This document shows, piece after piece, positions 18,381 through 51,123 of a DNA stretch of 64,000 bases. The notes beneath the pieces are model-generated. The model was not told where the DNA came from, did no database searches, and saw only the letters and a program-made list of their open reading frames with translations. The stretch is from positions 124,001 through 188,000 of the IMG/VR virus record IMGVR_UViG_3300015360_000024; one strand, 5' to 3'. The first letter of the stretch is position 1; each line of letters begins with the position of its first letter. The translations under genes were made by a program, and so were the position numbers. The DNA is from a virus.

Positions 18381-21044
18381 GTGATTCGAGTAACGATCAA
18401 AAATACAGGCAGCGTGCAGATCGTGCCTGGTGGGCATCCCGCGCTGCCTCCTCCGTTTCACCTGGTCGCATTGTGGCCGGGTGAAATGGAGGAGTCGATC
18501 TGCACTATGGAACAGGTGCAGGCTGAGTGGCCTCATAATTCAGGTTTTAAGGTGCTGGATCTGTTGAGGCAGCTGGTTCAGCAGAGTGTGATTCGAGTTG
18601 ACATTCGTCCATATCAGGAGAATTCTCCGGCGGTTCCTGCAATAGCACGGGCAAGCGAGATCCTGACGCCTCCGCCGCCGGCACCTCCTAAGCCAGAGAC
18701 CGTCGCTCAGGTGTTTAGAATGGCACCGCCCACCGTTGAAGATGACCCAGATGAAGACGAGGACGAGCCCATGAGCAACAAGGACGACCTGCCTGATTTC
18801 GTTGATCCGCTCTATAACGCGCCGACGACCAAGAAGGCTAAACCTGCGCCTGTTGAGGAGGTTGTGCCAGCAAGGCCCGCTCCCGTACAGAGTCCCACTG
18901 CAATCGACATCCCAGACCCAACTGTGGCTGCGTATCGTGGCAAGAAGAAGGAATCCAGGAAGGACGCCTTCGACTCTGCAGTGCAGATGGCGTTCGTGGG
19001 CGCTGGCCAGGGAGGCGGTCGGATTGCCCAGTCGTTCTACGACATGGGCTACAGGCGCGTCTGCGCGGTCAACACGACCCAGCAGGACTTGTCGTCGCTG
19101 ACTATCGCCGACCAGCTTGTTATCGGCAGGAACCGTGGCGGCGCCGGCAAGGACCCGGAACAGGGCAAGCTTGCTGCCAAGGAGTCGTACGAGGAGATCA
19201 TGGACCTCCTTAACCGCTCATGGGGTGAAGGCGTCGAGCAGATGTTCGTCTGCGTCGGAGCTGGTGGCGGAAGCGGTACTGGCAGCTGGCCGGTCCTCGT
19301 CAAGGCGATGCGCGAGTTTGGTGAGAGCACAAACATCGAGAAGCCCATCGAGAAGCACCTCGGCATCATCATGACGATGCCCAAGCGGTCCGAGGGCTCA
19401 CGGGTTCAGCAGAACGCGCTGACGGCACTCAAGCAGGCTGTCGAGCTGGTTGAGGAGAAGAAGATCAGCACGCTTGTCATTGTCGACAACGCGAAGATCC
19501 ACGACCTGTACCCCGGTCTGCCGGTGAAGCAGTTCTGGACGGTGGCCAATCAGAACTTTGCTGCCATCCTGCATACATTCAACATCCTCGCGGCCAAGGA
19601 TTCGCAGTACAACTGCGTTGACGCAGATACTGAAGCATTGACCAAACGCGGCTGGGTCAGAGGGTTTGATCTTGATCCACGAGACGTGCTTCTGACTAAG
19701 AATGCAGAGACCGGCGAACTTGAGTGGCAGGCTCTGACGGATCTCAAGCTCTGGCCAGATTACGAAGGGCCACTCGTAGAGTTGAAAAATAGAACGTTCA
19801 GTGCCGTGACGACGCCAGACCATCGCTGGTTAGTAACCGAGTCCTATGGTGGCGAAGACGTTTGCAAGCTGACCAGCGAGTTGTCGTTGACCGGCCACGA
19901 TCGTATTCATCGGTCTGGCACTTATCGTGGTCCAGATACCTCTATATGGACCGATGATTTCGTTGAGTTGATGGGGTGGTTTTTGACGGATGGAACTTGT
20001 ACCGTTACGCCTGAGTGCGAGGTCAAGAAGCAAAAGAACAGAACGTATGCAGGGCCTCGTGTAAGTGTTCAGATCTATCAAAGTGAGAGGGCTAACCCAG
20101 GGAAGGTTTCCCGTATAGATTCGCTATTACAGCGAATTGGGTGCCAGGCCCACAGGGGATTTTACGACAGAGATCAGCGTGTAACATGGCGACTTGACCG
20201 ATCTACGTCAGAGATTTTGAACGCTCTGTTCCCAGAGAAGGTTCTAACTCCTGAGGTTGCAGCCCAGCTGACAGCGTCACAGGCGAAGAGACTTCTTGAA
20301 TCTATGATGCTTGGAGACGGTAATCTTGCTGGGACTGATGAGCGACAGCAGGTATTTACTTCTGGCTCCGAAGCCGGGATTGAGGCATTTCAAATGCTCT
20401 GCACTTTATGTGGATTTGCCAGCACTTCGCGATGGCGTGATATGTCTGGATACACGCCTGTGTCTGACAAGATGCCAAACATTCCAAAGATGAGCGGCGT
20501 TTGGGCTTCGACCATTCTTCGGAGGCCGACCGTACAGCTTCAGAAGGAACATAAGAGAGAGTTCAACGCAAAACAGGGCGTCTGGTGCCCTGTTGTTCCC
20601 AATACGTACTTCGTGGCACGCCGTGAAGGAACGGTTTACGTTACTGGCAACACGTTCGACCGGGCTGACTATCGGTCGGTGCTCCGCAACGGCATTATGA
20701 TCTTCGGCATGACACGAGTCGAGGAGTGGGTGAACAAGGAAGACGTCTCGGTGGCCATCCGCCAGAACCTCGCCGGGTCACTTCTGGCTGATGGGTTCGA
20801 TCTCAGCAAGGCGAACATGGCTGGCGCAATCGTCGTGGCTCACGACAATGTGCTTGAAGAGGTGCCAATGGAGAACATCGACTACGCCTTCCATAGCCTC
20901 GGACGCGCGCTTGGCAACGATGGGATCACGCTCCACAGCGGCATCTACGAATGGAACAAGCCGGGCATGATGGTTTTCACAATCGTCTCCGGCCTTCAGC
21001 CGCCGCAGTCGAGATTTGACGAGCTGGAGAAGCTCTCAACCTGA
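18381..21044 (+). CDS. FtsZ/tubulin-like GTPase interrupted by an intein
   Basis: An 887-residue precursor (GTG start). Residues 1-75 form a small domain, followed by a Pro/acidic linker (~90-190). The tubulin/FtsZ GTPase begins near 203 (MAFVGAGQGGGRIAQSFYD, nucleotide-binding strand and loop) and carries the tubulin signature GAGGGSGTGS at 293-302. The catalytic T7 loop reads YN/TFDRADYRSVL and is split by the intein after Asn411; Asp760 and Asp763 would be the catalytic acidic residues. After splicing, the mature protein would have 541 residues. Family members polymerise head to tail and hydrolyse GTP when the T7 loop of one subunit meets the next. Here the role may be phage DNA or capsid positioning. 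The gene follows structural genes. Confidence 0.9.
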   Translation: MIRVTIKNTGSVQIVPGGHPALPPPFHLVALWPGEMEESICTMEQVQAEWPHNSGFKVLDLLRQLVQQSVIRVDIRPYQENSPAVPAIARASEILTPPPPAPPKPETVAQVFRMAPPTVEDDPDEDEDEPMSNKDDLPDFVDPLYNAPTTKKAKPAPVEEVVPARPAPVQSPTAIDIPDPTVAAYRGKKKESRKDAFDSAVQMAFVGAGQGGGRIAQSFYDMGYRRVCAVNTTQQDLSSLTIADQLVIGRNRGGAGKDPEQGKLAAKESYEEIMDLLNRSWGEGVEQMFVCVGAGGGSGTGSWPVLVKAMREFGESTNIEKPIEKHLGIIMTMPKRSEGSRVQQNALTALKQAVELVEEKKISTLVIVDNAKIHDLYPGLPVKQFWTVANQNFAAILHTFNILAAKDSQYNCVDADTEALTKRGWVRGFDLDPRDVLLTKNAETGELEWQALTDLKLWPDYEGPLVELKNRTFSAVTTPDHRWLVTESYGGEDVCKLTSELSLTGHDRIHRSGTYRGPDTSIWTDDFVELMGWFLTDGTCTVTPECEVKKQKNRTYAGPRVSVQIYQSERANPGKVSRIDSLLQRIGCQAHRGFYDRDQRVTWRLDRSTSEILNALFPEKVLTPEVAAQLTASQAKRLLESMMLGDGNLAGTDERQQVFTSGSEAGIEAFQMLCTLCGFASTSRWRDMSGYTPVSDKMPNIPKMSGVWASTILRRPTVQLQKEHKREFNAKQGVWCPVVPNTYFVARREGTVYVTGNTFDRADYRSVLRNGIMIFGMTRVEEWVNKEDVSVAIRQNLAGSLLADGFDLSKANMAGAIVVAHDNVLEEVPMENIDYAFHSLGRALGNDGITLHSGIYEWNKPGMMVFTIVSGLQPPQSRFDELEKLST
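19614..20651 (+). mobile_element. LAGLIDADG intein inserted in the T7 loop
   Basis: This 346-residue in-frame insertion (residues 412-757) begins with Cys in CVDADTEALTKRGWV (block A) and has the TxxH element TTPDH near 478-481 (block B). It contains two LAGLIDADG motifs (ELMGWFLTDGT near 530 and RLLESMMLGDGN near 640) and ends with a block F/G region FVARREGTVYVTGN, with terminal Asn and +1 Thr in the C-extein. The penultimate residue is Gly instead of the usual His, a known minor variant. The element should self-splice and may home. The flanking host sequence joins into an uninterrupted T7 loop. Confidence 0.9.
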
Positions 21045-21798: not shown

Positions 21799-22629
21799 GT
21801 GCCTGCAGTCTCCCAGGAAGAGGCTGTGCGTTTTCGCCTGATGTACGACGCTCGTATGTCGATGAAGCAGATCAGCGAACAAACCGGGCGTGGTCTGGAA
21901 ACCATCTGGCGTCACCTCAGGGCGTCTGGAGCGACTCGAACGCTGGAAGCTGGTTGGGCGATGGCGATGGATGAAGGTCGCGTCCCGGCCCCTCCGGTGA
22001 ACCGTAGACATACATTCGACCAGCGCTTTTTCGAGGTCGTAGACTCCTCGGAGAAGGCGTGGGTTCTCGGGTTGATGTTCGGCGACGGTAACGTTCGTTC
22101 TAGTGGCCGTGTGTTGCTGGCGTGTGGCAAGGACAAGGATGTCGCTCGCAAGGTCGCGGATCTGTTTTCTTACAGCGGTCCGCTGGTCTTTAAGTCGAGC
22201 TGTTGGATGCTGGAGGTTGGCTCTGTTGCGATGGTAAGGGATCTTGCCGCACTTGGTGTGGTTCCAGCTAAGACGTATACGATGAAGTTCCCATCGCTAC
22301 CTGACGGTCTGTTGCCGCATTTCGTGCGCGGCCTCTGGGAGAGCGACGGAACCATGTCGCGCTTGAAGACTGGCGGCCTGTATATGAAATATGTCAGCGC
22401 CAGCAGATGCTTTGTGGTTTCACTGCGCGACTTGCTTATCGACACGGTTAATGTGGTGGCCAAGGTTCAAGACCCGAGAGGACTTGATAGGCGTGGCGTT
22501 CCAGATCGCACATCTGTCATATCGTATGGCTCATCAAGTGCTGAGCGGTTGAGCGAGTGGGTGTACGGTTCATCTACTAAGCAGATGCGTTGTGATAGAA
22601 AATGGCACATTCATCGAGGTGATGTATGA
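21799..22629 (+). CDS. Free-standing LAGLIDADG homing endonuclease with HTH
   Basis: A 276-residue protein (GTG start). The N-terminus (~15-45, MSMKQISEQTGRGLETIWRHL) is a helix-turn-helix of the transposase/resolvase type. Two LAGLIDADG motifs follow: EKAWVLGLMFGDGN near 85-98 and LPHFVRGLWESDGT near 172-185, each with the acidic residue that binds the catalytic metal. A single protein with two motifs acts as a monomer. The stop overlaps the start of the next tail gene (ATGA). It was probably inserted between two virion genes and would cut alleles lacking it; it lies 1.1 kb from the intein. Confidence 0.85.
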   Translation: MPAVSQEEAVRFRLMYDARMSMKQISEQTGRGLETIWRHLRASGATRTLEAGWAMAMDEGRVPAPPVNRRHTFDQRFFEVVDSSEKAWVLGLMFGDGNVRSSGRVLLACGKDKDVARKVADLFSYSGPLVFKSSCWMLEVGSVAMVRDLAALGVVPAKTYTMKFPSLPDGLLPHFVRGLWESDGTMSRLKTGGLYMKYVSASRCFVVSLRDLLIDTVNVVAKVQDPRGLDRRGVPDRTSVISYGSSSAERLSEWVYGSSTKQMRCDRKWHIHRGDV

Positions 22630-35902: not shown

Positions 35903-36190
35903 ATGCTTACTTTGAACCTGACCAACACCTCGGGCGTCGCGATCGTTGCCGGCGACGGCGTCCTCCCCAAGATGTTCAGCTGGATGTCGATCGCGATTGC
36001 CGGCAATGCGAATGCCGTCATTCAGGTCGGTGACCTGACCAAGGAAGACCAGCCGAGCGCCGGCTTTACGGTTGGCGAGATGCTGCAGTCGCTCAAGCAG
36101 CGCGGCAAGATCACGTACAACGTCACCGACGTCGGCGACAGCGAAGACACGGGCAGCGTTGCTGACCACGTCGTCGCAACCGCTGTCTAA
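35903..36190 (+). CDS. 95-residue protein resembling the tubulin-like protein's N-domain
   Basis: A 95-residue protein with SD CTGGAGAAG. It starts MLTLNLTNTSGVAIVAGDG and later has SAGFTVGEMLQSLKQRGKITYNV. These align with MIRVTIKNTGSVQIVPGGH and SGFKVLDLLRQLVQQSVIRVDI at the N-terminus of the FtsZ-like protein (18381). Standing alone between a good SD and a strong hairpin, it looks like an efficiently expressed small protein, possibly a virion component. The relationship is by eye and moderate. Confidence 0.65.
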   Translation: MLTLNLTNTSGVAIVAGDGVLPKMFSWMSIAIAGNANAVIQVGDLTKEDQPSAGFTVGEMLQSLKQRGKITYNVTDVGDSEDTGSVADHVVATAV

Positions 36191-49427: not shown

Positions 49428-49467
49428 CGGGCCCATAACGGGCCCGTCCTTGTCCGAGGGATCGGAC
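49428..49467 (+). promoter_or_regulatory. Ro60 leader hairpins
   Basis: Two adjacent hairpins lie between the candidate ncRNA and the ribosome site: CGGGCCC/GGGCCCG around ATAAC (49428-49446) and GTCCGA/TCGGAC around GGGA (49452-49467). The second has the same GGGA loop as two hairpins in the ncRNA candidate, and GUCCGA is also a motif in animal Y RNA stems. They may be a Ro60 autoregulatory site or part of the same RNA. Confidence 0.45.
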
Positions 49468-49485
49468 CGAAAAGGAAGCAGCCAG

Positions 49486-51123
49486 ATGACGACCCATTAC
49501 TCAGATCACGTCAACGAGAAGAAGACCCCGCAGAACCAGAAGGCCAAGGCCGGACAGGTTCTCAACCAGGCCGGTGGTTTCGTGTTCGCTGTGGACCAGT
49601 GGGTCCAGCTGGACCGATTCCTGATCCTCGGCACCGAGGGTGGCACCTACTACGCCTCCGAGAAGGAGTCGACGGTCAAGGCCGCCGCATGTGTGGAGAA
49701 GTGCATCGCCACGGACGGTCTAAAGACTGTTGCTCGCGTCCTTGAGATCAGCGACGGTGGCCGTGCGCCCAAGAACGATCCGGCACTGCTGGTTCTGGCG
49801 ATGTGCGCCAAGAAGGGCGACGACGCCACCAAGGCCGCAGCTCGCGCCGCGCTGCCGAAGGTCGCGCGTATCGGCACGCACCTGTTCACGCTCGCTCAGA
49901 ACATCGAGGCGTTCGGTGGCTGGGGTCGTTCGACCAAGCGTGCGTTCGCGGACTGGTACCAGACGAAGACCCTGTCCTCGGCTGCGTTCCAGGCTGTGAA
50001 GTACCAGTCGCGTAACGGCTGGTCGCACCGGGACATCCTGCGTCTAGCGCACCCGAAGCCGAAGGACGATGGCTTCAAGGCGCTCTTCAAGTGGATCACC
50101 AAGGGTGAGCTGGAGGATGTCGCCATCGAAGGCCTGGAGATCGTCAAGGCGTTCGAGGTCGCGAAGAAGACCAAGGACAAGAAGGAAATCGTTGCGCTGA
50201 TCAAGGCTCACGGCCTGCAGCGTGAAATGATTCCGACCGAGTTCCTGTCGGAGCCGGACGTCTGGGAGGCAATGCTTCCGTCGATGGGCGTCACTGCACT
50301 CGTGCGCAACCTGGCGAACATGACGCGTATCGGGCTTCTGAAGCCGATGTCGTCTGCAACCAAGTCCGTTATCGCCTCGCTGGAGGACGCGGAGAAGCTG
50401 CAGAAGGCGCGTCTGCACCCGATCGCTGTTCTGTCGGCCCTGCTGACGTACAAGTCGGGCGGCGGTGGTCTGTACTCGAAGTCCCAGCACACCTGGACTC
50501 CGCTGACCTCCATCGTCGACGCACTCGATGCAGCGTTCTATAAGACCTTCAAGGCGGTCGAGCCAGCTGGTAAGCGCACGCTTCTGGCTCTCGACGTCTC
50601 GGGCTCGATGGACGGCGGCGTCATCGCGGGCGTGCAGGGTCTAACCCCGCGTATGGGTTCCTGCGCCATGTCACTCATCACGGCGGCGACCGAGAAGGAC
50701 CACCACTTCATCGGCTTCACGTCGGGTAGCGGTGGCTGGGGCCGGCCGAAGAGCGGCAGCGACGACGGCATCACGCAGATCGACATCTCGCCGAAGATGC
50801 GTCTGGACCAGGTTGTTCAGAAGGTCAGCGCCCTCCCCATGGGAGGCACGGACTGCGCTGCGCCGATGGTCTGGGCTCAGAAGCACAAGATCGAGGTCGA
50901 CACCTTCTGCGTCTACACGGACAGTGAGACGTGGGCTGGCACCATCCAGCCGTTCCAGGCACTGAAGGAGTACCGCCAGAAGATGGGCATCGGCGCAAAG
51001 CTGGTGGTCATCGGAATGACCTCTACGGAGTTCACGATCGCTGACCCGAGCGACGCAGGTATGATGGACGTCGTTGGATTCGACACGGCAGCCCCGGGTC
51101 TGATCAACGACTTCTCTCGGTAA
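49486..51123 (+). CDS. rsr: Ro60 (TROVE + VWA) RNA-binding protein
   Basis: A 545-residue protein from ATG 49486 with SD AAGGAA. Residues ~1-340 are a helical-repeat TROVE region (TPQNQKAKAGQVLNQAGGFVFAVDQW, GGWGRSTKRAFADWY, YQSRNGWSHRDILRLAHPK), the family that binds Y RNAs and misfolded RNAs. Residues ~360-545 are a VWA domain with a complete MIDAS: DVSGS at 370-374, Thr455 in GGTDC, and Asp479 in YTDSETW. The length matches animal and bacterial Ro60. It is followed by a strong terminator, so it is likely transcribed alone with its leader. Bacterial homologues help RNA processing and decay under stress. Confidence 0.93.
   Translation: MTTHYSDHVNEKKTPQNQKAKAGQVLNQAGGFVFAVDQWVQLDRFLILGTEGGTYYASEKESTVKAAACVEKCIATDGLKTVARVLEISDGGRAPKNDPALLVLAMCAKKGDDATKAAARAALPKVARIGTHLFTLAQNIEAFGGWGRSTKRAFADWYQTKTLSSAAFQAVKYQSRNGWSHRDILRLAHPKPKDDGFKALFKWITKGELEDVAIEGLEIVKAFEVAKKTKDKKEIVALIKAHGLQREMIPTEFLSEPDVWEAMLPSMGVTALVRNLANMTRIGLLKPMSSATKSVIASLEDAEKLQKARLHPIAVLSALLTYKSGGGGLYSKSQHTWTPLTSIVDALDAAFYKTFKAVEPAGKRTLLALDVSGSMDGGVIAGVQGLTPRMGSCAMSLITAATEKDHHFIGFTSGSGGWGRPKSGSDDGITQIDISPKMRLDQVVQKVSALPMGGTDCAAPMVWAQKHKIEVDTFCVYTDSETWAGTIQPFQALKEYRQKMGIGAKLVVIGMTSTEFTIADPSDAGMMDVVGFDTAAPGLINDFSR

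Follow-up and report, generated by a model that had tools for sequence, protein, structure and literature searches.

An intein at the T7 loop of a tubulin/FtsZ-like GTPase from a large tailed phage

Introduction

Inteins of mycobacteriophages and Gordonia phages are inserted at active sites of large terminase (TerL), portal, methylase, RDF and TOPRIM proteins, and the published list of mycobacteriophage intein hosts has no tubulin/FtsZ protein (Kelley et al. 2016, PMC5050341). An FtsZ subunit contributes catalytic residues to its neighbor through the T7 loop (PMC5414002). Here we describe an intein at the T7 loop of a tubulin/FtsZ-like GTPase, encoded in a stretch of 64,000 nucleotides (the window) that corresponds to bases 124001-188000 of the 193,958-base virus record IMGVR_UViG_3300015360_000024. 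A cytoskeletal GTPase thus joins the intein-carrying proteins, interrupted at the place through which a subunit activates its neighbor. A reading of the window made earlier from its sequence only (the sequence-only reading) did not know this host and site for an intein, and no earlier intein in the tubulin/FtsZ superfamily was found in the open-access literature, mostly in titles and abstracts; that it is the first is not proven.

The closest described systems are the inteins of phage family A DNA polymerases (PolA). Those of contigs L018-L022, L024-L026 and L057-L072 were compared here; that of MT121960 is more distant. The polymerase inteins are homologous to the tubulin intein from end to end (43-51% identity for the copies on viral contigs), contain LAGLIDADG motifs, and have the same Cys1, the same Trp-Cys-Thr (WCT) triplet and the same penultimate Gly. 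They differ in host and site, and the tubulin inteins form a clade of their own. The mycobacteriophage and Gordonia phage inteins share about 23-31% identity with the tubulin intein over the full length, as well as the penultimate Gly and the insertion at an active site. The methylase, RDF and TOPRIM inteins have no Trp at position B:12, however, where the tubulin intein has Trp72.

Class 3 inteins, such as those of Mch, Mle and Msm DnaB, resemble the tubulin intein in the WCT triplet, the His at B:10, the spacing between blocks F and G, and the Ser or Thr at +1. In contrast to the tubulin intein, which has both Cys1 and the TxxH motif, they are described as lacking an N-terminal nucleophile and often lack TxxH, and their penultimate residue is His rather than Gly. 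The host protein shares its nucleotide loops and T7 acidic residues with FtsZ, TubZ, CetZ and PhuZ, but has an N-terminal linker and an extra domain in addition.

The intein and its insertion site

The precursor open reading frame (ORF) and its parts are listed below, with positions in the window. Joining of the exteins after removal of the intein gives a protein of 541 residues, in which SQYN meets TFDRAD.

18381-21044, plus strand: precursor ORF for the phage tubulin/FtsZ-like GTPase with its intein, 887 residues, GTG start, stop at 21044
18381-18623, plus strand: N-terminal add-on domain of about 80 residues, present only in the window and in contigs L005 and L006
18771-18773, plus strand: Met131, an internal ATG and possible alternative start, with GAGG 8 nucleotides upstream; its use as a start is predicted
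18999-19031, plus strand: N-terminal nucleotide loop GAGQGGGRIAQ (T1-like), nearly invariant in the allele alignment
19257-19289, plus strand: tubulin signature GAGGGSGTGSW (T4-like), residues 293-303, from alignment to known structures
19518-19613, plus strand: central helix (H7-like) and, continuing from it, the first half of the T7 loop, which ends in SQYN, from sequence alignment to FtsZ
19614-20651, plus strand: intein of 346 residues (residues 412-757), from Cys1 to Gly345-Asn346, followed by Thr758 at +1
19614-19655, plus strand: intein block A (CVDADTEALTKRGW) with Cys1
19809-19829, plus strand: intein block B, TTPDHRW, with Thr67, His70 (B:10) and Trp72 (B:12), as defined in PMC5222942
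19965-19994, plus strand: first LAGLIDADG motif, ELMGWFLTDG
20295-20321, plus strand: second LAGLIDADG motif, LESMMLGDG
20580-20651, plus strand: intein blocks F and G, from VW-Cys325 (F:4)-PVV to Thr344 (G:5)-Gly345-Asn346
20652-20669, plus strand: second half of the T7 loop, TFDRAD, residues 758-763, the start of the C-extein with the +1 Thr and two acidic residues

The intein is located between Asn411 and Thr758, in YN/TFDRAD (the slash marks the junction), at the T7 loop. Eight tubulin alleles are available for comparison, and five of them, on viral contigs L002, L003, L004, L006 and L009, are uninterrupted (YNTFD[RK]AD). The other two contigs, L005 and L007, have an intein at the identical codon, with 75% and 70% identity, respectively, to that of the window. 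Chance is excluded, as three contigs share the codon of insertion and five have the site empty, and the insertion in the tubulin gene is therefore real. The tubulin cores of L005 and L006 are each 87% identical to that of the window, but only L005 carries an intein; the neighborhood of the intein-free L006 gene is syntenic with the window. At a further locus, L049, a GGGxGTGSW pattern is present in the DNA, but the reading frame is not recognizable as a tubulin.

The insert is an intein, because end-to-end homologous inserts exist in unrelated phage proteins, intein-free alleles are known, and the fold matches. In tblastn searches of phage genomes, residues 1-346 of the intein align with inserts in DNA polymerase, TerL, portal, methylase, primase, RDF and nucleotidyltransferase proteins. 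The best matches of a predicted model (pLDDT 74) in the Protein Data Bank (PDB) are the TliVMA intein, PI-PfuI, PI-SceI and I-DmoI (best E 5.6e-11). The Cys1 nucleophile, His70 of block B, the terminal Asn346 and the +1 Thr are all in place, and the boundaries of a 346-residue LAGLIDADG intein given by the sequence-only reading are exact. A PDB search with the sequence of residues 412-757 gave no Hint or intein match, and sub-threshold matches from the intein searches (AcrF31) look like chance.

Both LAGLIDADG motifs retain their catalytic acids, Asp126 in LTDG and Asp235 in LGDG, and from the sequence the homing-endonuclease motifs look intact. In the relative on contig L027, most of the endonuclease is gone. 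This member of the family (L027:4001-4669) has 223 residues, and a further intein-like segment (TPVPMQEIMF/CLDQDTNLSTCDN) seems to follow it at a short distance within that ORF.

The host protein

The joined exteins score above the cut-off for the Pfam families Tubulin (PF00091; 60 bits, cut-off 33, E 4.8e-16) and TubZ-like_C (PF22453; 28 bits, cut-off 26, E 2.5e-6). They match many FtsZ, TubZ and CetZ structures in the PDB, among them both archaeal and bacterial FtsZ, the best being M. jannaschii FtsZ, H. volcanii CetZ2 and B. cereus TubZ. The assignment to the tubulin family made in the sequence-only reading is thus borne out, although not for every family that it named: the score for the FtsZ equivalog TIGR00065 (99.5 bits, NCBIfam) is far below the cut-off of 295.2 bits, and the PhuZ profile phrog_4733 gives only a trace match (E 0.026, 14.6 bits). 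The clear Tubulin match, the low FtsZ equivalog score and the trace PhuZ match indicate that the window tubulin belongs to a phage branch of its own within the superfamily, which in these profile and structure searches is closer to FtsZ than to PhuZ. No relative turned up when contigs of GTDB genomes were scanned with the tubulin alignment.

The nucleotide loops GAGQGGGR, GGAGKDPEQG and GAGGGSGTGS are conserved across the alleles, and the Asp and the Ala-Asp pair of TFDRAD are invariant in all of them. HMMER pairs YN-TFDRAD with IN-VDFAD of FtsZ. The insertion is therefore at the T7 loop, as the sequence-only reading had proposed, but the phage loop (N-T-F-D-R-A-D, compared to N-V-D-F-A-D in FtsZ) is apparently one residue longer. 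This placement depends on the sequence alignment, because the AlphaFold model of the intein-free L006 tubulin (pLDDT 47, from a five-sequence alignment) is poor beyond the N-terminal GTPase half.

Over about its first 80 residues, the tubulin ORF is similar to a separate gene for 95 residues at 35903-36190 (E 1.5e-4 directly), and the E value is about 1e-8 when this gene is compared with the add-on domain of L005 and L006. Met131 corresponds to the start of relatives without the N-terminal extension. Two tubulin isoforms are possible, since the internal ATG at 18771 remains despite the N-terminal fusion (18381-18770).

Origin and movement of the intein

The closest relatives outside tubulin are mostly found in family A polymerases, at N/TPVQGTA or N/SPIQGTA; these hosts were recognized by eye from the PolA motif, without a profile. 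In the tree, the three tubulin inteins are monophyletic (100/100) and fall among the phage PolA inteins, so the simplest reading is a single entry into the T7 site. Tubulin and PolA inteins mostly share Asn at -1 and Thr or Ser at +1, and the lineage apparently moved between PolA and an unrelated enzyme with the local N/T junction kept. By the rooting, the intein probably came to tubulin from PolA. No relative was found in GTDB genome contigs scanned with the intein alignment, and hence no cellular source at that sensitivity.

There are differences between the two trees. The extein tree groups the window with L005 and L006 (100/99), whereas the intein tree groups L005 with L007 (92/92), a hint that the intein has passed from one tubulin allele to another. 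Forcing the window and L005 inteins together is only just not rejected by the approximately unbiased (AU) test (p 0.057). The nonsynonymous divergence (dN) agrees with the mismatch: it is 0.22-0.25 for all three pairs of inteins, while for the exteins it is 0.10 between the window and L005 and 0.22-0.24 for the other pairs. The G+C content at third codon positions (GC3) is 0.51 in the window intein compared to 0.77-0.80 in its exteins, and it is lower in the intein in each of the three filled alleles. Synonymous divergence (dS) is saturated and therefore gives no timing of transfer. The sample of L007 (IMG 3300017963) also holds phage contigs L059 and L068, with related inteins in PolA, and donor and recipient intein lineages may co-occur there.

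Proposed mechanism and alternative explanations

The best explanation, which we hold with considerable confidence, is a homing intein that invaded the phage tubulin, most likely splices by the class 1 route, and descended from phage PolA inteins. The architecture, the exact site, the empty and filled alleles, the monophyly and the intact catalytic residues were computed; from them we infer splicing, cutting by the endonuclease, and where the intein came from and which way it moved. The gene would yield a precursor of 887 residues, from which the intein would fold and excise itself, starting most likely at Cys1, which the block-F Cys325 may replace or assist as nucleophile, and continuing through the +1 Thr and cyclization of Asn346. 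The expected products are an FtsZ-like GTPase whose T7 loop is intact, with 541 residues (411 from a start at Met131), and a free LAGLIDADG endonuclease of 346 residues. The endonuclease would cut intein-free tubulin alleles at TACAAC/AC, and repair would copy the intein in. After a single entry into the site, the intein would have spread and been lost patchily. The simplest account is that the intein is a homing parasite: it cuts itself out, and the tubulin that remains is functional.

Several points weigh against this account. All of the evidence for it is sequence. Residues 412-757 match no Hint or intein profile at E<1 in Pfam or NCBIfam, so the intein similarity expected by the sequence-only reading is not seen at the level of profiles; the end-to-end homologs, the empty alleles and the fold match overturn this negative. 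The PolA-to-tubulin direction depends on the rooting, and the inner branches are weak. Finally, only three intein-bearing alleles are known, and with the AU result the intein may have spread horizontally or been inherited vertically with loss.

Two splicing routes come into question, as a class 1 front end (Cys1 and TxxH) is combined with a complete class 3 triplet. The close intein family has in common Cys1, TxxH (Thr67 and His70), Trp72, Cys325, Thr344, Gly345, Asn346 and a +1 Ser or Thr. A class 3 mechanism, in which Cys325 (F:4) rather than Cys1 initiates splicing, is the main alternative and is compatible with a homing intein. The Trp72-Cys325-Thr344 triplet (B:12, F:4 and G:5), the class 3 signature (PMC5222942), is invariant in 12 relatives; the spacing of 21 from Cys (F:4) to Asn equals that of the Mch and Mle DnaB inteins (Cys124 to Asn145), and the +1 Thr is present. 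However, Cys1 is invariant in 12 of 12 close relatives, at the position where class 3 inteins are described as having no nucleophile. Block B has TxxH, as in class 1, rather than DxxH as in the class 3 intein DnaBi1, and a Cys at F:4 is also known from class 1 inteins (PMC3196547). The residues thus suggest class 1 as the more likely route, with class 3 a tentative second. A decaying, splicing-defective intein, which would leave the tubulin of the source phage inactive, could be suspected from the Gly in place of the canonical penultimate His, and pseudogene inteins are known (PMC3196547). However, every aligned relative but L030 (Leu) has this Gly as well, so it is a family trait rather than local decay. 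It need not mean failure, as the mycobacteriophage RDF intein has a penultimate Gly and splices well, and substituting the canonical His slows its splicing (PMC5050341). Decay is very improbable, since no nucleophile has been lost, neither a frameshift nor a stop interrupts the gene, and three independent alleles show conservation of the exteins at T7. Because the window comes from a metagenomic contig, a chimera of two genes created by assembly or annotation was also considered. It is rejected with near certainty, as L005 and L007, from different samples, share the junctions of the window, the inteins are 70-75% identical, and the frames are open throughout.

The sequence-only reading had also suggested that splicing is a switch for filament formation. 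Splicing would then be conditional, for example under redox control through Cys325, and would have been co-opted so that the tubulin acquires its T7 loop, and with it the GTPase activity of the filament, at a particular point in infection and not before; if true, the assembly of a cytoskeletal polymer would be switched on post-translationally. In favor of this, the intein interrupts the loop from which the neighboring subunit receives catalytic residues (PMC5414002), and it is a reasonable inference that the intein-bearing precursor is unable to make the T7 contact. In addition, oxidation reversibly inhibits DnaBi1, a class 3 intein with a Cys in block F (PMC6195587), and the tubulin intein has such a Cys. 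On the other hand, five of the eight alleles are intein-free, including L006 with its closely related core, which argues against a needed role. Homing accounts for the insertion site, and the intact endonuclease motifs and patchy distribution are explained by selfish homing without regulation. The good splicing of the RDF intein, with its penultimate Gly, also speaks against a switch, and no sensor element or other sequence sign of conditional splicing was seen in the tubulin intein. The switch is therefore not supported, and we consider it very unlikely. The natural filled and empty alleles allow tests of homing, and the question of how a blocked T7 loop affects the tubulin can be asked with them.

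Genome context

The source virus is a large tailed phage that has no close isolates. A baseplate-wedge gene in the window matches T4-like and marine myovirus counterparts, so the tail is most likely contractile. The virus record, which is possibly incomplete, has no match to terminase (PF03237), RNA polymerase (PF00562) or PolA. As no gene for the beta subunit of a multi-subunit RNA polymerase (PF00562) is found in it, we do not link the source phage to phiKZ-type nucleus phages.

The genes next to the tubulin gene on its downstream side are the same in the window, L005 and L006, and the region looks structural; the remaining alleles have different neighbors. A gene for a free-standing LAGLIDADG endonuclease of 276 residues follows the tubulin gene after 0.75 kb, at 21799-22629. 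In L005 and L006, the homologs of its two flanking genes adjoin each other directly; this endonuclease gene is therefore an insertion with known empty sites.

The source phage seems to hold two different inteins. Outside the window, at locus L089 (G000:C1, minus strand, 191041-188189), a Snf2-type helicase of 951 residues contains a second intein of 348 residues (190594-189551), within the Walker A motif GLGK/T. Its first residue is Gln rather than Cys, and with GPDHLW, VCIKV and LTHN/T it has the canonical class 3 signature. At 49450-51123, the window encodes a Ro/TROVE-like RNA-binding protein, with about 50% identity to the versions in Gordonia and Mycobacterium phages.
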